A stretch of DNA of 21,547 nucleotides from a virus: the IMG/VR virus record IMGVR_UViG_3300028859_000067, positions 1-21,547 of that record, one strand, 5' to 3'. Made by a program: the position numbers and the translations under genes. The first letter of the stretch is position 1; each line of letters starts with the position of its first letter. Below, one piece after another: positions 2-20,529 of the stretch. The notes under the pieces are model-generated. The model did no database searches and was not told the origin of the DNA. It saw nothing but the letters and a program-made list of their open reading frames with translations.

Positions 2-397
2 CGGGCAATTTGCTACATCGACAAGCCAAGCGAAACTGTGCAAATGGCTGCTGTTCAACGAGATAGTTGGGCAATTGAATACATCGACAAGCCAAGCGAA
101 GCTGTGCAACTGGCTGCTGTTCAACAAGATGGTTGTGCAATTAAATACATCGACAAACCAAGCGAAGCTGTGCAAATGGCTGCTGTTCGACAAGATGGTT
201 GGGCAATTTGCTACATCGACAAGCCAAGCGAAGCTGTGCAACTGGCTGCTGTTCAACAATATGGTTGTGCAATTAAATACATCAGCAAGCCAAGCGAAGC
301 TGTGCAAATGGCTGCTATTCAACAAGATGGTTATGCAATTGAATGCATAAAAAAGCCAACAATTAATGTCAAATTAGTGGCTAAATTGCTGTCTTAA
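2..397 (+). CDS. 22-residue repeat protein (DUF4116-like), 5' end outside window
   Basis: The reading frame is open to the left edge, so the true start is upstream; the internal GTG at 38 is not a convincing start because the repeat continues in frame before it. The visible 131 codons are a tandem array of a 22-residue unit of the form SEAVQ(M/L)AAVQQDG-A-YIDKP, five full copies and one degenerate last copy ending KPTINVKL. The pattern resembles DUF4116-type alpha-hairpin repeats found in some phage and Legionella proteins; function unknown, possibly a helical solenoid for protein contacts. The repeat is conserved at DNA level too (66-bp periodicity), which points to recent expansion or gene conversion. 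No enzymatic motif is visible in this part. Confidence 0.75.
   Translation, partial: RAICYIDKPSETVQMAAVQRDSWAIEYIDKPSEAVQLAAVQQDGCAIKYIDKPSEAVQMAAVRQDGWAICYIDKPSEAVQLAAVQQYGCAIKYISKPSEAVQMAAIQQDGYAIECIKKPTINVKLVAKLLS
5..356 (+). repeat. 66-bp coding tandem repeat, about 5.3 units
   Basis: Units begin with GCAATT at 5, 71, 137, 203, 269 and 335, exactly 66 bp apart. Neighbouring units differ by a few bases, and two diagnostic sites alternate along the array (CAAATG versus CAACTG, and TTGG versus TTGT at the unit end), suggesting a partly erased two-unit (132-bp) higher-order repeat. All differences keep the frame open. Confidence 0.9.
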
Positions 398-945: not shown

Positions 946-984
946 ATTTCTCTTACCCGCGAACTGCATAATTATTTATCAAAA

Positions 985-2497: not shown

Positions 2498-3586
2498 TTA
2501 TTTATTCAAATTAGCTCTTCCTTTAATATATCCAGCCACTTTATATTTTTCCCACTCTTCTTTTTTAATAGTTTTGCTTATATTTTTCTCAACATTAGAA
2601 ATCCACATATAATCACGAGTATTACTTAGCAAATGACCTTTTATATACCCCATTTGATTGTATAGAATAAAGTCTACTGGAAAAATTCTTTTAACATCTT
2701 TAATAATTAAATTGGTTATCCATATTTTTCCAATTGTTTTAGACTTAATTATTCCTCTAATCCATCCCAAATTTTTATATTTTAACCAATCACATTTTTT
2801 AATTCTAATTTCTTGTTTCAACTTTAAATTTTTAATAAAAATAGTATCTTTCCATAAATTTGATTTTTCTTTTTTCAAATCATCAGACATTTTATACATC
2901 ATTCCTTTTGAATATCCTGACTTTAAATACTTTTCTAAATCATTTTTAGAAATTAATATTTCTTCTGATCCATTATTAACCCATATTTTTCCAATATTTT
3001 CTTTTGCATTTTTACGTAATGTTTGAAATACTTTTTCTGGAGATCCTTTAATATATCCTTTCAATTCATATGAAGAAAGTTCTTTAATATTAATCATTTT
3101 TCTATTTCCAGTTAAGGAGTTATAAATATGAATTTGGTCTTTCTTATTAGAAATCATTCCTTTCTTAAATCCCAAATTTTCAAATTTAGAAAAATCAATT
3201 GGTAATATTTGTTTTTGACAATCTCCATTATTAATCCAGATTGTTCCTACGCTACTTCTAAAAGACTTAGAACCTACATGCAAATTATACCAAGAATCAT
3301 TATTGATTGCTTTAACTCTATAAAGAAATTTACTTTCATGCTCAACACATTTTTTCTTAGAATCAAAAATTCTACAAATCTTGATATCAAATATATCTTT
3401 TCCTTCATTATCAATAATGTTTTTAATTATTTTGCTTGACGTAAAATAAATAGTCCATAAATCCTCAGGTTTGCATCCTTTTGCAAATCTGCATCCATAA
3501 TATTTCTTTTTAGTTATTTTGTGAGTAATACAATATGTAAAAGGAGTTCTATCAATTGCAGTAAAAGTTGATGGATAAATATTCAT
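2498..3586 (-). CDS. GIY-YIG-like homing endonuclease with six C-terminal repeats, 362 aa
   Basis: N-terminal nuclease domain, about residues 15-100: TYCITHKITKKKYYGCR fits the GIY...YIG...R pattern in divergent form, followed by DLWTIYFTSSK and VEHESKFLYR, where the glutamate would be the metal ligand. This arrangement is typical of free-standing homing endonucleases of T4-like phages. Residues about 113-362 hold six copies of a ~40-residue unit with IW(I/V)NN at its start and Y--GYIKG at its end, probably a DNA-reading array. AGGAGG at 3596-3601 is a strong ribosome site nine bases before ATG 3586. The gene sits between the 985 gene and the divergent 3674 gene, i.e. an intergenic insertion. 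Its leader (3587-3654) carries the hairpin element also found before the unrelated 18740 endonuclease. Codon use is extremely AT-rich. Confidence 0.7.
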   Translation of the reverse strand: MNIYPSTFTAIDRTPFTYCITHKITKKKYYGCRFAKGCKPEDLWTIYFTSSKIIKNIIDNEGKDIFDIKICRIFDSKKKCVEHESKFLYRVKAINNDSWYNLHVGSKSFRSSVGTIWINNGDCQKQILPIDFSKFENLGFKKGMISNKKDQIHIYNSLTGNRKMINIKELSSYELKGYIKGSPEKVFQTLRKNAKENIGKIWVNNGSEEILISKNDLEKYLKSGYSKGMMYKMSDDLKKEKSNLWKDTIFIKNLKLKQEIRIKKCDWLKYKNLGWIRGIIKSKTIGKIWITNLIIKDVKRIFPVDFILYNQMGYIKGHLLSNTRDYMWISNVEKNISKTIKKEEWEKYKVAGYIKGRANLNK

Positions 3587-3654
3587 GGCTGATTGCCTCC
3601 TGTGGCATTAGAGTGGTTAGAGATGGGAGTCTCGTGAACCACATTATTATTTAT
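3587..3654 (-). promoter_or_regulatory. structured 5' leader of homing endonuclease gene, copy 1
   Basis: Read on the minus strand: late-type box ATAAATA (3654-3648), then a 30-nt hairpin at 3642-3613. Outer stem GTGGTT/AACCAC, a CAC bulge on the 5' side and one T on the 3' side, inner stem GAGA/TCTC, loop CTCCCA. TCTAAT and AGGAGGCAATCAGC follow, before ATG 3586. The same architecture, spacing and flanking words occur at 18671-18739 with compensated stem changes. Confidence 0.65.
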
Positions 3655-3665
3655 CTTGATAAATA
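3648..3665. promoter_or_regulatory. back-to-back late-type promoters in an 18-bp palindrome
   Basis: TATTTATC-TT-GATAAATA is a perfect inverted repeat with a late box on each strand: ATAAATA 3659-3665 toward the nucleotidyltransferase gene, and ATAAATA 3654-3648 toward the homing endonuclease. The ATG of the rightward gene (3674) is only eight bases beyond its box, so that mRNA would be leaderless or nearly so. Confidence 0.55.
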
Positions 3666-8504: not shown

Positions 8505-9449
8505 ATGAAGAAATTGACTTTAAAAGAATTCATTGATAAAGCAAATATAGTTCATAATTTTAAATATGATTACATTAATAGCATATATATAAACAGTCGC
8601 TCAAAAATTATAATAAATTGCAAAATATGTAAAGTAAAATTTGCTCAAAATTCAAACAAACATTTGAGTGGAAAAGGTTGCCCTGCTTGTGGAGGAACTA
8701 AAAAAATTACCACAAAAGAATTCATTGATAAAGCAAATATAGTTCATAATTTTAAATATGATTACAGCAAATCCATATATGCAAATAATCATACCAAAAT
8801 CATAATAATTTGCAAAAAATGTCATAATGAATTTACTCAAACTCCTAATAGCCATTTAGCAGGATATGGTTGCAAAAATTGTTTTTTCTATTCTTTAACA
8901 TATAATATTGCTGAATTCATTGATAAAGCAAATATAGTTCATAATTTTAAATATGATTACAGCAAATCCATATATGCAAATAATCATACCAAAATCATAA
9001 TAATTTGCAAAAAATGTCATAATGAATTTACTCAAACTCCCCACAATCATTTAGCAGCAAAAGGATGCGCACAATGCTGTGAATCAAAAGGAGAAAAAAT
9101 AATTAGAAAATATTTACTTGAAAATAACATTAATTTTGAAAACCAATTTAAAATTTCAAAATGTAAAAATAAAAGAATGCTATCATTTGATTTTTCAATT
9201 TTTGAAGCAGAAAAATTAATTGGATTGATAGAATTTCAAGGAATGCAACATTATAAATCTATTAAAAGCTGGGATGGCGAAAAAGGATTTATTCAAAGAA
9301 AATTTAGAGACTCTATAAAATCCAATTTTTGCAGAGAAAACAATATTCCTCTACTTATTATTCCATATTGGAATAAAAATAATATAGAAGAAATATTAAA
9401 TAATTTTATCATAAATATTAATAGGTGCAAATATGACGAAACTATTTGA
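8505..9449 (+). CDS. Vsr-like (EDxHD-type) homing endonuclease with three zinc ribbons, 314 aa
   Basis: Residues 1-195 are three repeats of a ~64-residue unit: EFIDKANIVHNFKYDY, then CKxC and CxxC pairs (CKIC/CPAC, CKKC/CKNC, CKKC/CAQC), i.e. treble-clef or ribbon DNA-binding modules of the DUF723 style. Residues ~198-314 are a Vsr-like PD-(D/E)XK-related nuclease: GEKIIRKYL, LSFDFSIF, GLIEFQGMQHY and a final IPLLIIPYW; likely active residues are the Glu after the ribbon, Asp in FDF and His in QHY. Paralogue of the 18740 protein. It lies between two late genes, two bases after one stop and overlapping the next start by 17 bases, the expected site for an intergenic homing gene. Repeats two and three share an exact 128-bp DNA match. 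No strong ribosome site. Confidence 0.75.
   Translation: MKKLTLKEFIDKANIVHNFKYDYINSIYINSRSKIIINCKICKVKFAQNSNKHLSGKGCPACGGTKKITTKEFIDKANIVHNFKYDYSKSIYANNHTKIIIICKKCHNEFTQTPNSHLAGYGCKNCFFYSLTYNIAEFIDKANIVHNFKYDYSKSIYANNHTKIIIICKKCHNEFTQTPHNHLAAKGCAQCCESKGEKIIRKYLLENNINFENQFKISKCKNKRMLSFDFSIFEAEKLIGLIEFQGMQHYKSIKSWDGEKGFIQRKFRDSIKSNFCRENNIPLLIIPYWNKNNIEEILNNFIININRCKYDETI
8526..9040 (+). repeat. intragenic duplication: exact 128-bp direct repeat plus a 49-bp third copy
   Basis: Bases 8718-8845 and 8913-9040 are identical over 128 bp (195 bp apart), and their first 49 bases also occur at 8526-8574. They encode successive zinc-ribbon modules. No synonymous differences exist in the matched part, so the duplication or conversion is recent. 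Confidence 0.92.
9411..9417 (+). promoter_or_regulatory. late-type promoter for the 9433 gene
   Basis: ATAAATATTAATAGGTG at 9411-9427 combines a late box and the ribosome site AGGTG, closely matching the block at 7937-7952. It lies within the last codons of the homing endonuclease, so the insertion left the downstream gene with its own promoter. Confidence 0.55.
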
Positions 9450-14339: not shown

Positions 14340-17222
14340 TTATTCATTAAAATTAAACGAAGTATATCCATTTTCTTTTGTAACAGTTAATACACTATTA
14401 CACTTACTTATCAATTCATCTTTATGACTAATAATCCAAACATCTCTGTTTTGCTGTCTAGACATATCTCTTAATAGTTTAATGGCTGATTCTGTTCCTG
14501 AAACATCAATGCCAGCATCAATCATTTCATCCAATCCCAAAAGATTAATTTTTTGATATAAGCTTTCGTGAACATCTCTGAAAGCAAATGATAGTCCCAA
14601 TTGAAGTCTCGCCATTTCTCCGCGAGATAAATTTCCAGGGCTCAATTCTCTTCCCAATTCACTTATATTAACATCTAAATCATTTTGAAATATTACTGTA
14701 TGCGGAAGTCCCAATGCTGTTAGATAATAATCCAATCGAATATTTAAATAACTAAGATTTTGTTCAATAATCTTCTTTCTAATAAATGAGTCTTTATTAG
14801 TCAATAACTTCATTAAAAATTCTTGATGGTCAACCAAACTTGAAAAAGCATTCATTGTAGATAAATCAATTGTTTCAATCGCAGTATTTTGCATTTCTGA
14901 AATCTGATCTTTATATGGGTCGATTTCATTATATTTTTGCTCATACTGTTGAATCAAAAGATTTAATTTATTTTTATGTTCATAAACGTCAGATAGTGCA
15001 TTATATACTTTTTCTTTTGGTTTAATAACATTGGGAATTATACTAAAAGAAGCCAACACTTCATTTATTTTATCATACCATTGTTGAATATCTTTTTCGG
15101 TTTGATTATATTCTTTTTTTATCTTTAATAATAATTCTTTATGCACATCATCATGAATTTTTTGATGGCACGTTTGGCAACATTGATTTTCTAAACTAAG
15201 CAAATCGTCATTTAACTTCATTAAAATTTTATTTTCTTTATTTAATGAAGTTTCATAATGTTTTTTCTGTTGTTCCAATTGCTCTTTATTAGCAGCAGCA
15301 GTGTTATACTCATCCCAACTTGAATGAATTTTTATTTCTTCTTCAATGTCAATTTTAGAAAGGAAATCAATAGATTTCTCCAATTTAATTAATTCTTCAT
15401 TTTTAGAACGCTCCCACAACTTCTGCCTTCTAATTAAACTATTAATCTGATCTTGTATTCTCTTGTTGGCTTCTTGGACGCTTTTAATACGAATATCTTC
15501 TTTTAACACATCTTCTTTTGCAATTTTAATTTCTTCTTTTAATTTTTCAGCTTTTTCGCTGAGTAAAGTAATTCCCAACAACTGTTCAATAATGGTTCTT
15601 TGGTCACTAACTTTTTGAAATAAGAAAGGCGTTGTATAAGTATTTAATGCAACAATTTGACAAAACATATCATGGCTCATATTCAAAATTGTTTCAATTT
15701 CTTTTTGAGTTTCCCGACTATCTCCTTGTGATGTATCGTTCAAATCTAAAGCAATATCTTTTTCTTCTTTCTTAATTCCATTTTCAAAAAATTCAAATAC
15801 TCTTGGTTTTAAGCCTCGATTAATTATATATTCTTTGCCATCAGATTCAAATTCAATGGTGACTAACATATTTTTACCATTGGTTTTATTAATGAGATGT
15901 TCTTTCTTAATATTGGAAATGGGCCATGAAAATAATGCGTAACTCAATCCATTCATTATAGTAGTATTATGAGTTACAACAAAATTATCAGTAACATATA
16001 AATGCTCTGGATCATCAACCATGATGCACTGACATTCTTTTTTGCCAATAAATTCAATACTTTTTATTTGTGATCGCAACTGTGTTTCATATTGATATTT
16101 TTTTGATAATCTTTCTCTTTTTCTGGGTAGAGATACGATGTTACGCATATTATAATATCTAATATTTACATTATAGGAATCTTTACAAGGAACACGTTTT
16201 CCTTTATAACTATATGTTTTATTTTTTTTATGAAAAATTCTAGCTAACCCTCCAATACTACGAACAATATATGTAATATCATTTGCTAGTTGTCTGCTTG
16301 TTGTGCAAATAGAGAAGCCTCCATTTTTTCCAATATAACCATTAGTGTCCATTAATCCAGCAAGTAATTCTTCTTTTTGCCTTACACTAGAAGATTTATA
16401 AATTTCTGGTATAAATTTAGTATCACTATGCGTTCCGCATAAATTCAATTGTTTTATAATTCTATTAAATTTATTTGGATTTTTTAAAACGTTACTTTCA
16501 TAATTATTATTACTAACAACTCTATAATCATATAAATTAGTCGAATTACCTTTATAACTTAACGAACAATTAAATTCAGAATTTAATTTTTCATTCATTT
16601 TATTTTTCATAAATTCATCAGCAGTAGTAAAAGTAACACTAGATGATACTGATAATCCTGCATAACCTAAAGTAGCTCCTAATAACCATGGATCGATAGG
16701 TAAGCATATATCCGATATATTTTCTGGTTTAATTAATGGTGTGTAAATATAAGCTGAAGGATTTTTATTTTCATATTTTTTTAAATGTTCTATAATTTCG
16801 CCTGTAGTTAAAATACTTTCTTTATTAATATATTTTTTTGATGTAAATTTATGGCTATAAGTTTTCCATAAATGATCATATGAAGCCTCAACTGTTCTTC
16901 CATCAACAAAAGTAATAAGATAAGTATCAAGCATCCCTTGACCATAAATACCTGTTACTTTAGCTTGTTTACCTTTTGGTGTTATAATCAAATCATTTAA
17001 ACATAAATCTCCCATTTTTTTCCAACCAGATTTTGTTAAAATATTAGATGTCAATGGTTGCGCCTTGCCGCATCCATTACGGCTTCCAGAATCTTCTCCA
17101 CCCATATCTAAATTTTCTCCAAGAACCAATACTAACTCTTCTCGATTAAAATTTAATGTTTGCGGTGCATTGCCAATACTTAGAAAATTTCGTAATGTCA
17201 AATTTTTAACTATTATTGCCAT
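14340..17222 (-). CDS. 46: gp46-like recombination nuclease subunit (SbcC/Rad50 type) interrupted by an intein, 960 aa precursor
   Basis: ATPase subunit of the gp46/gp47 (SbcCD/Mre11-Rad50-type) nuclease for DNA end resection in recombination-dependent replication. N-extein residues 1-53 include the family run GENLDMGGEDSGSRNGCGK; C-extein starts TTIMNGLSYALFSWP. After splicing the P-loop reads NGCGKTT. Long coiled coils (about 550-680 and 690-780) surround the zinc-hook CQTC (682-685). The C-terminal ATPase half has signature LSRGE (865-869), Walker B LLGLDE (894-899) and a switch-like WIISHKDE (929-936). The mature protein would be 594 aa, close to T4 gp46 (about 560). Start codon overlaps the previous stop (TAATG). 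Last gene of the gp47-macro-gp46 operon; because the intein splits Walker A, splicing is required for activity. Confidence 0.93.
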   Translation of the reverse strand: MAIIVKNLTLRNFLSIGNAPQTLNFNREELVLVLGENLDMGGEDSGSRNGCGKAQPLTSNILTKSGWKKMGDLCLNDLIITPKGKQAKVTGIYGQGMLDTYLITFVDGRTVEASYDHLWKTYSHKFTSKKYINKESILTTGEIIEHLKKYENKNPSAYIYTPLIKPENISDICLPIDPWLLGATLGYAGLSVSSSVTFTTADEFMKNKMNEKLNSEFNCSLSYKGNSTNLYDYRVVSNNNYESNVLKNPNKFNRIIKQLNLCGTHSDTKFIPEIYKSSSVRQKEELLAGLMDTNGYIGKNGGFSICTTSRQLANDITYIVRSIGGLARIFHKKNKTYSYKGKRVPCKDSYNVNIRYYNMRNIVSLPRKRERLSKKYQYETQLRSQIKSIEFIGKKECQCIMVDDPEHLYVTDNFVVTHNTTIMNGLSYALFSWPISNIKKEHLINKTNGKNMLVTIEFESDGKEYIINRGLKPRVFEFFENGIKKEEKDIALDLNDTSQGDSRETQKEIETILNMSHDMFCQIVALNTYTTPFLFQKVSDQRTIIEQLLGITLLSEKAEKLKEEIKIAKEDVLKEDIRIKSVQEANKRIQDQINSLIRRQKLWERSKNEELIKLEKSIDFLSKIDIEEEIKIHSSWDEYNTAAANKEQLEQQKKHYETSLNKENKILMKLNDDLLSLENQCCQTCHQKIHDDVHKELLLKIKKEYNQTEKDIQQWYDKINEVLASFSIIPNVIKPKEKVYNALSDVYEHKNKLNLLIQQYEQKYNEIDPYKDQISEMQNTAIETIDLSTMNAFSSLVDHQEFLMKLLTNKDSFIRKKIIEQNLSYLNIRLDYYLTALGLPHTVIFQNDLDVNISELGRELSPGNLSRGEMARLQLGLSFAFRDVHESLYQKINLLGLDEMIDAGIDVSGTESAIKLLRDMSRQQNRDVWIISHKDELISKCNSVLTVTKENGYTSFNFNE
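15966..17063 (-). mobile_element. intein in the gp46 P-loop, 366 aa, endonuclease motifs degenerate
   Basis: Precursor residues 54-419. The N-terminal block starts with Ala (AQPLTSNILTKSGWKKMGDL) rather than Cys or Ser; block B is VEASYDHLW with the His; the end is HLYVTDNFVVTHN, and the next residue is Thr. The central part has two LAGLIDADG-type helices about 106 residues apart: LGATLGYAG (181-189) and LAGLMDTNG (287-295). The acidic residue normally at position 8 is Ala in the first and Asn in the second, so the homing nuclease is probably inactive while splicing blocks remain. It is placed between Lys53 of GxGK and Thr420. Confidence 0.9.
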
Positions 17223-17614: not shown

Positions 17615-18634
17615 TTAAATCCCACGATATATTTCAAGTAACAAACTATTATCAAAAAACTGAGATTCTATAGCACCAAGTTGTGACTGAACAATTGTAT
17701 CAACTGACTGAAAAGCTACATTACCTCCATGCGCCAAGTCTTCTGAAAAAGTACTTTTTTTCATTGATATTAATGACATTTCTCTTAACGAATATTCATC
17801 TACTAAAGTTTCTTTCAAATATGCAGCTTCTTCATATGACACTTCTGAATCTAACATTAATTTTATATAACCATTGATTGGTAAATATAATGATGGATCA
17901 ACAACCAATTGGCTAATTTTAACTATTCTGTATTTTGGAGCTTTCGGCCAAGAAATATATTTCGGAGTTCCTCCATATGGCAAAATCATCATTCCTCGAT
18001 CATCATCTCCAGAATCCCCAAAATTATGAGGGAATGCATTTCCTACATAATGAATATTATTCTGCTGCTGTCTCATATGAAAATGGCCAGAATAAACTTC
18101 TTCAATTTGTTTTAACTGATCAATTTTTATATCTCCAACATCTGGCATCGGCACTCGACTGTTCATCATAAATCCAGGTAATTCCAAATGTCCAAATATA
18201 TATTTTGATCTAATATTTTCTATTTTAGAAAAATCTTGCTCATTTAGCCAAGGTAGAAAAGTAACATCATTTTCAGTATATATATCATTAACAATTTCAA
18301 TATTCGGAATATGTTCTGCCCAAGCAATACTATGAATGGTTCTATTGGATTTATAGTAATTATCATGATTGCCAGTAAGAACAATTACTCTATCAAAAGC
18401 ATCACTGAGCAATCTTAATATTTGTAATCCATAATTTAACGAAATTAAATTTACATTATTTCTATTATTAAAAAAATCTCCCAAAAATATACAAATATCA
18501 CAGTTTTCTTCGCTAGATTTTTGTATGAACCATTCAACAAAATTTTTACAATCTTCCAAATGAACAAGACTGTTTGTTTTTAGTCCAATATGCAAGTCAG
18601 TAAAAATTGCTGCTTTTTTAAATAAATTGGTCAT
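17615..18634 (-). CDS. 47: gp47-like recombination nuclease (SbcD/Mre11 type), 339 aa
   Basis: Catalytic phosphoesterase subunit, partner of gp46. Metal-binding motifs in order: FTDLHIG (Asp13, His15), FLGDFFNNR (Asp53), TGNHD (Asn89, His90, Asp91), FGHLE (His149) and SGHFH (183-186 region). With the start at ATG 18634 the length is 339 aa, the same as I recall for T4 gp47. The frame extends 28 codons further upstream to ATG 18718, but that extension covers the promoter (18669-18641) and has no ribosome site. Only six bases lie between the -10 and ATG 18634, so the mRNA is predicted to be leaderless. First gene of the gp47-macro-gp46 operon. Confidence 0.93.
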   Translation of the reverse strand: MTNLFKKAAIFTDLHIGLKTNSLVHLEDCKNFVEWFIQKSSEENCDICIFLGDFFNNRNNVNLISLNYGLQILRLLSDAFDRVIVLTGNHDNYYKSNRTIHSIAWAEHIPNIEIVNDIYTENDVTFLPWLNEQDFSKIENIRSKYIFGHLELPGFMMNSRVPMPDVGDIKIDQLKQIEEVYSGHFHMRQQQNNIHYVGNAFPHNFGDSGDDDRGMMILPYGGTPKYISWPKAPKYRIVKISQLVVDPSLYLPINGYIKLMLDSEVSYEEAAYLKETLVDEYSLREMSLISMKKSTFSEDLAHGGNVAFQSVDTIVQSQLGAIESQFFDNSLLLEIYRGI

Positions 18635-18640
18635 ACTTCG

Positions 18641-18669
18641 ATGATAAGTCCTTTGTAATGTTTTGTCAA
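18641..18669 (-). promoter_or_regulatory. sigma70-type promoter of gp47, start site on the ATG
   Basis: Minus strand TTGACA (18669-18664), 17-base spacer, TATCAT (18646-18641), then six bases to ATG 18634. The -35 abuts, on the opposite strand, the late-type box of the divergent homing endonuclease leader. Confidence 0.8.
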
Positions 18670-18670
18670 G

Positions 18671-18739
18671 ATAAATAATGTCAGTCACGATGTTAGCCCA
18701 TCCACTGACTCTAATCATTCATGGAGGAACAATCAGCTT
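18671..18739 (+). promoter_or_regulatory. structured 5' leader of homing endonuclease gene, copy 2
   Basis: Late-type box ATAAATAATG (18671-18680), then a 30-nt hairpin 18680-18709: outer stem GTCAGT/ACTGAC, CAC bulge, inner stem GATG/CATC, loop TTAGCC, one C on the 3' side. TCTAAT (18710-18715) and GGAGG-AACAATCAGC follow before ATG 18740. Same plan as 3587-3654: identical stem lengths, bulges and loop size. Confidence 0.65.
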
Positions 18740-19687
18740 ATGCGTATTTATACAACTACTGATTTCATATTATCGTCTATTTCTAAACATAATAATGAAT
18801 TGCTTTCTTATGAAAAAACTATTTTCACTAGTAAAAACTCCAAAGTAATTATTACTTGCAAACTTCACGGCGATTTTGAGCAAATAGCAAAAATTCATTT
18901 GAAGGGGCATAGTTGCCCTCAGTGCGGCCATAATTATCGAGCCAATTTAAATAGATTAACCACTGAACATTTTATTAATGATGCTAATAAAATTCATAAT
19001 TTTTTCTTTTCATATGATAATTCTTTTTATATTGGTAGAAATCGCAAAATAACTATTACTTGTCCCTTTCATGGTGAGTTTAATCAAATGGCAGGAAATC
19101 ATTTAAATGGCTTTGGGTGTCCCAGTTGTTCTGGTTGCAAAAAATTAACAACTGAAGAATTTGTAAGAAAAGCCAATATTAAACATAATTTTAAATTTGA
19201 TTATAGCAAGTCAATTTATATAGGTGCTCATTCAAAAGTTATTATAAGTTGCCCAGAACATGGTGAGTTTACTCAGAAACCAAATTGTCATTTATCTGGC
19301 GCTGGCTGTCCTGTGTGTAAAGAATCAAAAGGAGAACGAGAAATTCGCATAAATCTTAAAGAATTAAAAATGAATTTCAAATACCAATACTCTTTTAAAA
19401 ATTGCAAAAATATAAAACCACTGCCATTTGATTTTGCATTATTTAATAATAAAAAATTAATTGGTCTAATAGAATATCAAGGTATACAGCATTATAAAGT
19501 AGGTTCTTTTGGTAGTAAATCAAAATCAATAGAAGATAAAATTAAAGATTTATATGAAATTCAATCTAGAGACTTAATTAAACTAAATTATTGCAAAACA
19601 AATAAAATTCCTCTTTTAATTATTCCTTATTGGAATCTGAGTAATATCAAAAATATTTTGTCTAATTATTCATATCCACCATCATAG
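18740..19687 (+). CDS. Vsr-like (EDxHD-type) homing endonuclease with three zinc ribbons, 315 aa
   Basis: Paralogue of the 8505 protein with the same plan. Three DNA-binding modules of ~65 residues carry CxxH and CxxC pairs (CKLH/CPQC, CPFH/CPSC, CPEH/CPVC). The C-terminal nuclease reads SKGEREIRINL, LPFDFALF, LIGLIEYQGIQHY and ends IPLLIIPYW; candidate active residues are Glu in GERE, Asp in FDF and His in QHY. Unlike the 8505 copy its modules have diverged from each other. Ribosome site GGAGG (18723-18727) precedes ATG 18740. It is inserted between gp47 and the gp55-like gene, on the opposite strand, and its last 22 bases overlap the C-terminal codons of gp55. Its leader matches the one before the 3586 endonuclease. 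Confidence 0.78.
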   Translation: MRIYTTTDFILSSISKHNNELLSYEKTIFTSKNSKVIITCKLHGDFEQIAKIHLKGHSCPQCGHNYRANLNRLTTEHFINDANKIHNFFFSYDNSFYIGRNRKITITCPFHGEFNQMAGNHLNGFGCPSCSGCKKLTTEEFVRKANIKHNFKFDYSKSIYIGAHSKVIISCPEHGEFTQKPNCHLSGAGCPVCKESKGEREIRINLKELKMNFKYQYSFKNCKNIKPLPFDFALFNNKKLIGLIEYQGIQHYKVGSFGSKSKSIEDKIKDLYEIQSRDLIKLNYCKTNKIPLLIIPYWNLSNIKNILSNYSYPPS

Positions 19688-20529
19688 CTATTAATATCTT
19701 TATTTGTGCGCGAATAGCTGGGATTCATAGAATTTTTTATAAGCAGATCATCTCGTATCTGCTGATTTTTCTTTTCAATATTTAGTATTCGTAAGAAAGA
19801 GTTATGACATATAGATGTAAAAAATGCAAAAGGATTGGCTGATTTTGATTCATCGAACTGAAGGGCTACTTGGCAAAGTTGCATTACTGCCTGACCTTTA
19901 AATTCTTCAACATAAGAATAATTTCTCCAGTTTCCTTTACTCGCATATTTGTCTGTTAATTTCATAATCATTCTTGCCAAAGTATCTGTAAAATATCCGT
20001 GAGTCTTGCAAAATTGTCCATTATCCAAATCTCCAATCCAATGACTTTTAGCAACTACACGCAAAATATTATTTTCATCAAATCTATAATTGTAAAACGG
20101 AGGGAAATTAATTCTAATATGGTCAGCTTTTAAATTACTCAGCGGCACAATATTTAAACTTTCCAAATCATCATCTTCATCTTCTAAAACAAAATCATCA
20201 TTGTCAATTACACTATCAAAAAATCTATCTATACTTTTTCCTGGAACAATTTCAGCCAACATCTTTTCTGATTTAGAAATTTTCGGAGGAAGCATTGGTA
20301 TGTGTTCCCAAGTCATAATTCTAAAAACTAAATTAGTTGTTGGTAAGTTGTCTATATTTACTTTTTCTCCAGTTTCTCTTAAAATTCTGGCTACTTTGTT
20401 TTGCTTTGCTAAAATAATATTTTGATAATTTATTTCTTTAGTGTCAAATAATATTATATCATATTGGTGATCAGTTTCTTTGTTTAGAAATGAACAAAAC
20501 GTATTCTTTGAAAGATGAATTTCTTTCAT
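19666..20529 (-). CDS. 55: gp55-like late-transcription sigma factor with long N-terminal extension, 287 aa
   Basis: Directs host RNA polymerase to late promoters of the TATAAATA type. The C-terminal half (about residues 155-265) matches the gp55 core by eye: VAKSHWIGDLDNGQFCKTHGYF in two parts, WRNYSYVEEFKGQAVMQLC, and FDESKSANPFAFFTSICHNSFLRIL, the helical region 2-like part. T4 gp55 is about 185 aa; here ~140 residues precede the core, including TNLVFRIMTWEHIPMLPPK and an acidic run (DNDDFVLEDEDDDLE). Many late-type boxes in the window fit its presence. The ribosome site is weak (AGAG). Upstream, 50 bases away, is a frameshifted small gene probably in the same early operon from 20894-20866. 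Its last codons overlap the convergent endonuclease gene. Confidence 0.85.
   Translation of the reverse strand: MKEIHLSKNTFCSFLNKETDHQYDIILFDTKEINYQNIILAKQNKVARILRETGEKVNIDNLPTTNLVFRIMTWEHIPMLPPKISKSEKMLAEIVPGKSIDRFFDSVIDNDDFVLEDEDDDLESLNIVPLSNLKADHIRINFPPFYNYRFDENNILRVVAKSHWIGDLDNGQFCKTHGYFTDTLARMIMKLTDKYASKGNWRNYSYVEEFKGQAVMQLCQVALQFDESKSANPFAFFTSICHNSFLRILNIEKKNQQIRDDLLIKNSMNPSYSRTNKDINSYDGGYE

Follow-up and report, generated by a model that had tools for sequence, protein, structure and literature searches.

Two homing nuclease genes that show no detectable similarity to each other (BLASTP E value of 0.28) are preceded by leaders of the same design in the window analyzed here, a 21.5-kb viral fragment (IMG/VR record IMGVR_UViG_3300028859_000067). 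The question raised by this locus is what such a shared leader does, and on which strand it does it. Copy 1 of the leader belongs to a GIY-YIG (SegE-type) nuclease on the minus strand (2498..3586; Pfam PF19835, 1.8e-7), and copy 2 to a Vsr-like/zinc-ribbon nuclease on the plus strand (18740..19687; phrog_559, 1.7e-59, and phrog_9084, 5.4e-23). Both present, in this order ahead of the ATG, a late-type box (GATAAATAAT; box 1, at 3646..3655 on the minus strand and 18670..18679 on the plus strand), a hairpin (hereinafter P1), TCTAAT, the purine block GGAGG, and AATCAGC. The full conserved unit (3575-3655, minus strand, and 18667-18751, plus strand) extends past the start codon into nuclease codons 2-4, which contain TATTTAT.

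The two hairpins fold with identical geometry, namely, a 6-bp outer stem, CAC opposite a single base, a 4-bp inner stem, and a 6-base loop, at -10.5 (copy 1) and -10.4 kcal/mol (copy 2), and for neither copy was any of 200 shuffled sequences as stable. By direct reading, all five pairs that differ between the copies, three outer and two inner, are compensated. The leader order, the geometry, the compensated pairs, and the lack of homology between the coding regions had all been pointed out in a preliminary description of this DNA, and each is borne out.

Distribution of the leader and the nucleases behind it

We scanned IMG/VR with DNA patterns derived from different parts of the leader, such that all totals are lower bounds, and trained a covariance model on 60 diverse copies, which was then run on the fetched loci and the window. 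The model produced 315 matches, nearly all above 35 bits, with noise near 20. At least about 280 copies with distinct leaders were recovered from contigs of T4-like phages and a few cultured phages, with up to 13 copies per contig among whole contigs (360 kb and 333 kb). The cultured phages matched were Variovorax phage V45v66, Sinorhizobium phage phiM9 and, more weakly, Pseudoalteromonas phage XG4; a BLASTN search of GenBank phages with the leaders yielded a single true copy, in V45v66. phiM9 carries two elements, at 14761-14851 and 28168-28249, both of them at annotated homing endonucleases. For one of these, Sm_phiM9_032 (KP881232), the annotated start (14718) lies upstream of the element (14761-14851), and the real start is probably inside or after the element.

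The element was found in 2 of the 118 GTDB stretches of bacterial DNA that matched the start pattern (L309 and L375; about 0.75 Mb in total) and was absent from the examined cyanophages and Vibrio and Rhizobium phages with related nucleases. A model of the antisense strand (see below) had no matches anywhere in T4, Aeh1, or the whole genome of Aeromonas phage 25. Among the known RNAs of Rfam 15, including ribozymes, there was no covariance-model match at the curated score.

The preliminary description had named a lack of further hits upstream of homing genes as a refutation; instead, many of the additional copies precede such genes, of the GIY-YIG, HNH, and Vsr-like types. Among 106 diverse proteins encoded behind the element, 66 matched PHROG 314 and 38 matched PHROG 655, both labelled homing endonuclease, and the Pfam types represented include NUMOD3, several HNH and several GIY-YIG families, as well as TnsA-like, PvuRts1I-like, and zinc-ribbon domains. 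Thus, a single leader serves several unrelated nuclease folds, and with a homing-family nuclease as its downstream gene, the unit is a homing cassette. The boundary of this cassette is placed at the element by a comparison of two loci (L017 and L018), in which the flank and the leader agree completely or almost completely as far as the ATG, whereas the nucleases behind them are unrelated. At the 3' ends of the nuclease genes, we detected no partner motif or matching element such as a transposon would have. These observations suggest that free-standing homing nucleases of unrelated folds have spread with one common control cassette, behind which nucleases have been swapped, as in this pair of loci. 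One further locus (L133) contains four elements, some of which precede truncated nuclease frames, as expected of homing genes in decay.

A structure selected on the antisense strand

An alignment of the sense strand, gathered by a pattern outside P1, showed that all six outer and all four inner pairs vary on both sides, with 99% and 97% of the cells paired, respectively. The covariation score was 0.758, compared with 0.218 ± 0.014 for shuffled and at most 0.157 for slid alignments, the opposite of the refuting outcome named in the preliminary description, namely, more copies without significant covariation. A third short helix, around the Shine-Dalgarno sequence, covaries too. The alignment of the opposite strand comprises 19 pairs, with 96.7% of the cells paired and a score of 0.586 (shuffled, 0.201 ± 0.010; slid, at most 0.144), and RNAalifold, unprompted, returned the identical 19 antisense pairs, arranged in two hairpins.

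The antisense consensus is G-CUGAU-NNN-loop-NNN-RUUAG-A-[6 bp]-R-[4 bp]-loop-[4 bp]-G-Y-G-[6 bp]. The first hairpin, P2, has about 8 bp and a loop of the CUCCUU type that is complementary to the Shine-Dalgarno sequence. Its base is formed by the complements of the sense-strand TCTAA and ATCAGC, with a fixed G·U at the third pair. The second, P1, has 11 bp with two bulged Gs and is followed by a U-rich tail. In copy 1, folding together with RNAalifold places P2 at 3589..3611 (plus strand), and folding together with wobble polarity places P1 at 3613..3642 (plus strand), with 6 bp, an R-Y pair flanked by the bulged Gs, 4 bp, and the loop. In copy 2, P2 is a 10-bp hairpin (CUGAUUGUUC/GAAUGAUUAG) at 18711..18736 and P1 lies at 18680..18709, both folded on the minus strand. 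Folding of the sense strand gave a weak P2 for copy 1 and none for copy 2, and P1 stops short of the Shine-Dalgarno sequence in both. The antisense fold is the more stable one in both copies (-21.3 versus -15.7 kcal/mol in copy 1 and -20.1 versus -11.2 kcal/mol in copy 2).

In compensatory change of an RNA helix, G·U is a common intermediate and A·C is not. Read on the sense strand, P1, the first three pairs of P1b, and the inner part of P2 contain 31, 7, and 8 A·C cells, respectively, and no G·U. The central base of the CRC bulge and the base opposite it behave in the same manner: CGC/C occurs 212 times, CAC/C 41 times, CAC/T 25 times, and CGC/T never. Overall, there are 87 A·C and no G·U wobble cells on the sense strand, that is, all G·U are on the antisense strand, a polarity that RNA and single-stranded DNA would show alike. 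After clustering at 85% identity, with P1, P1b, and the bulge pair counted once per cluster, the numbers are 52 and 0. The pairing search preferred sense G·U to A·C in P1, so that its bias runs against the observed polarity. Furthermore, the antisense fold is more stable in 203 of 223 copies (mean of -16.8 versus -12.8), and most distant copies score higher with the antisense model, for example, XG4 (45.0 versus 29.4 bits), with V45v66 slightly favoring the sense model (61.8 versus 58.3 bits).

Together with the frame-independent late box described below, the wobble polarity and the fold energies place the selected structure on the antisense strand. It lies opposite the nuclease-coding strand and overlaps the nuclease start, the arrangement of a cis-encoded antisense element. 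The claim of the preliminary description that this is a portable control element stands insofar as the element is selected, portable, attached to unrelated nucleases, and provided with a late-type box, but a hairpin of the nuclease mRNA is not supported. The antisense selection, the pairing of TCTAAT with ATCAGC as the base of P2, and the conservation into codons 2-4 go beyond that description.

Facing late-type boxes and a candidate antisense RNA

In T4, late promoter boxes occupy positions -13 to -6, and the variants ATAAATA and CTAAATA occur in related phages (PMC1524935). The element has boxes of the TATAAATA, ATAAATA, or CTAAATA type, and the phage encodes a gp55-like late sigma factor (19666-20529 of the window), the combination expected of T4-like late promoters. 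The TAAATA of box 1 is located 2-7 nt from P1 in 250 of 276 copies, most often at 5 nt (178/276), with 3-4 nt in 67/276. The 5-nt spacing would start the late mRNA at the first base of P1, and 3-4 nt would trim only one or two bases.

A second box (box 2; ATAAATA on the antisense strand) faces the first from within nuclease codons 2-4 (3575..3581, plus strand, in copy 1 and 18745..18751, minus strand, in copy 2). It is present in 57 of 61 copies that had not been selected for it, compared with 2 of 669 control windows. Among the 77 unselected copies with both TAAATA and GCTGAT, the former precedes the latter by 5 nt in 58; in the two window copies, the spacing is 6 and 7 nt. In V45v66 and XG4, box 2 is not at its canonical place. 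Given these spacings and the -13 to -6 rule, each of the two transcripts would begin with the first base of the element or one adjacent to it. Relative to the ATG, box 2 is retained in each of the three reading frames, which led us to reject protein coding as an explanation for the conserved M-x-I-Y start. We also rejected a stem in which the TAAATA of one late box would pair with the TATTTA of the other, because the boxes do not covary.

Divergent copies separate the element from the start codon. In one divergent set (G004; contig 3300034053_000029) and in phiM9, the start codon has shifted to a position upstream of CCAGC, the spacing of box 2 to the element is still 4-5 nt, and changes at the P2 base are compensated by direct reading (CUGGACAU/AUGUCUAG, CUGGUCAU/AUGAUUAG, UUGGUCAU/AUGACUAA). 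With the start codon shifted and both the spacing and the pairing retained, the conserved unit is the antisense one rather than the ribosome-binding site.

On the 3' side of antisense P1, there is an A followed by a U-rich run that mostly overlaps box 1. Copies that lack box 1 remain U-rich on the antisense strand (4.7 of 8 positions, read as A on the sense strand, against a background of 2.9; p = 7e-7), and several of these contain runs of U5-U7. The retention of U-richness without box 1 suggests that an antisense RNA terminates in this stretch after P1; the U-tract is interrupted by A, and a simple terminator scan called none in copy 1. The predicted RNA of copy 1 would accordingly span 3587..3655 on the plus strand, starting at G3587 by the -13 to -6 rule and ending within the U-rich tail (3643-3655), and that of copy 2 would span 18670..18739 on the minus strand, from the putative start to the U-rich tail.

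We propose, with a probability of about 60%, that a small gene for an antisense RNA, about 65 nt long, travels with homing nucleases, and that its product pairs with the start of the nuclease mRNA and throttles expression. Under this model, the late promoter within codons 2-4 would start the RNA at or next to GCUGAU; the RNA would fold into P2 and, after a one-base gap, P1 with its two bulged Gs, and would most likely end in the U-rich stretch, hence the predicted length. The nuclease mRNA would begin at the facing late promoter, at the opposite end of the same element, such that the antisense RNA would be complementary to the 5' end, the Shine-Dalgarno sequence, and the start region of this mRNA. 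Pairing of the P2 loop with the Shine-Dalgarno sequence would keep nuclease output low, and collision between the two promoters might contribute to this effect. How homing genes stay tame in T4-like phages thereby becomes directly testable, including in the cultured phage phiM9. The element appears to represent an undescribed family of structured phage RNAs, multicopy within a genome, absent from Rfam, and located on a strand that is left unannotated.

Competing readings and relationship to known systems

The P2 base (GCUGAU/UUAGA) and the R/GYG positions are nearly invariant and lie next to stems that vary freely. They look like a recognition site, which suggests more than pure antisense regulation explains. 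We entertain, as a tentative possibility, that the antisense RNA is a dedicated RNA component of free-standing homing elements, recognized by a phage or host protein through the P2 base and the G bulges or acting in trans between copies of one genome, and shared by different nuclease folds. If so, the RNA would do more than restrain its own gene. The binding of a phage protein by the element, already raised in the preliminary description, is possible. A stronger form, in which the RNA is made but has its main job elsewhere, in trans or bound to a phage or host protein involved, for instance, in late transcription, mRNA decay, or the homing reaction, would account for this pattern of invariance as well as for the up to 13 different copies per contig. 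We nevertheless consider it unlikely: the element always overlaps the nuclease start, an overlap that a trans-acting RNA could do without, and no binder is known.

The element might also serve the neighboring gene as a 5' leader or insulator, with box 2 restoring late transcription after insertion and P2/P1 forming a leader structure. Simple ORF calling in 120 clear cases gave 67 elements antisense within a gene run, 28 in the same direction, 15 divergent, and 10 convergent; the predominance of the first class and the fact that the neighbor is often read away from the element speak for this reading. Nonetheless, this role is improbable. Box 2 is equally common when the neighbor reads the other way (17/17 in the same orientation, 40/44 in the divergent one), an independence that favors a role for the nuclease over one for the neighbor and disfavors box 2 as a promoter of the neighboring gene. 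The neighbor often has its own sigma-70 promoter directly beyond the element: a -35-like TTGAC pointing away from it occurs in 46 of 254 cases, compared with 4 in the opposite direction and 9-22 further out, and is accompanied by a -10 at the proper spacing in 40 of 55 cases, indicating that the element is often directly upstream of the neighbor's own promoter. The U-rich tail, moreover, suggests that the RNA stops before the neighbor. Directly beyond copy 2, a sigma-70-like promoter (TTGACA, 17 nt, TATCAT; 18634-18672, minus strand) reads into a gp47-like gene, for which an ATG at 18634 is a better-fitting start codon than that of the longest ORF, at 18718.

A structure that acts as single-stranded DNA, with the hairpin bound or cut in replication, recombination, or homing, would agree with the wobble data because DNA hairpins likewise accommodate G·T, but the U-rich 3' side and the late boxes that flank the structure at fixed spacing point to transcripts, and no partner motif was found at the nuclease 3' ends, making this reading very doubtful. 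Least credible is the hairpin of the nuclease mRNA controlling translation or stability that the preliminary description had suggested: P1 does fold on the sense strand, and the predicted start of late sense transcription coincides with or adjoins its 5' base, but the wobble polarity, the weaker sense folds, a ribosome-binding site outside P1, and a start codon whose position is not conserved relative to the element all weigh against it.

Hairpins precede several homing genes of T4 (I-TevI, I-TevII, I-TevIII, and segB) as well as mobE of Aeromonas phage Aeh1; they form in early read-through mRNA, contain the ribosome-binding site, and are lost from late mRNA (reviewed in PMC2988022). The present element resembles these in combining a homing nuclease of a T4-like phage, a late promoter, and an RNA structure at the gene start. 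It differs in that the fold is antisense, has its own late box, and is common to unrelated nucleases. Specifically, the ribosome-binding site is not inside a stable mRNA hairpin; a late mRNA starting at the first base of P1 would retain the 5' arm and carry the hairpin; and selection for pairing on the mRNA strand is contradicted by the complete absence of sense G·U. The block on translation of early read-through transcripts, suggested in the preliminary description by analogy with I-TevI, accordingly finds no support, with wobble polarity, fold energies, and box 2 all placing the structure on the other strand. The hairpin of seg43(25) in Aeromonas phage 25, the function of which is unexplained, lies just upstream of the ribosome-binding site of a homing nuclease and excludes it (PMC2988022). 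The sense hairpin described here is likewise upstream of, and excludes, the ribosome-binding site, but nothing in the phage 25 genome is matched by the antisense model.

The proposed mode of action has counterparts among cis-antisense RNAs of mobile elements and plasmids. IS10 RNA-OUT, CopA/CopT of plasmid R1, and Sok of hok/sok are short structured RNAs that lie across the start of the gene they control. The bulges in the CopA stem, according to Hjalt and Wagner (1995) as cited in PMC3753616, aid binding and protect the RNA from RNase III. Bulged stems, typical of antisense regulators such as CopA, are present here as well; the element is not known to be related in sequence to any of these RNAs. 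Unlike these regulators, the element is one module for several unrelated nuclease families, and both of its putative facing promoters are of the phage late type. In the open-access literature searched, we found no description of such an RNA. Cis-antisense control of a mobile gene is of a known kind, whereas the RNA family and its shared portable arrangement appear to be new.

The window contains additional traces of homing elements. Directly downstream of the gene at 985-2493, an exact pattern match at 957..980 (minus strand) consists of box 1, a 5-nt spacer, the 5' arm of P1, and CGCGG, without the 3' arm; even allowing two mismatches, 0.05 such matches are expected by chance, and this half-element is probably a remnant of a lost cassette. 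A third nuclease (8505-9449, plus strand) is a paralogue of the one at 18740, with 44% identity; it starts 3 nt past the upstream stop codon and has no match to the element. A gp46/SbcC-like gene (14340-17222, minus strand) contains an intein with a LAGLIDADG homing domain, so that this 21.5-kb stretch carries several kinds of homing element. A small ORF (38-397, plus strand) encodes imperfect repeats (KPSEAVQ-AAVQQDG units).
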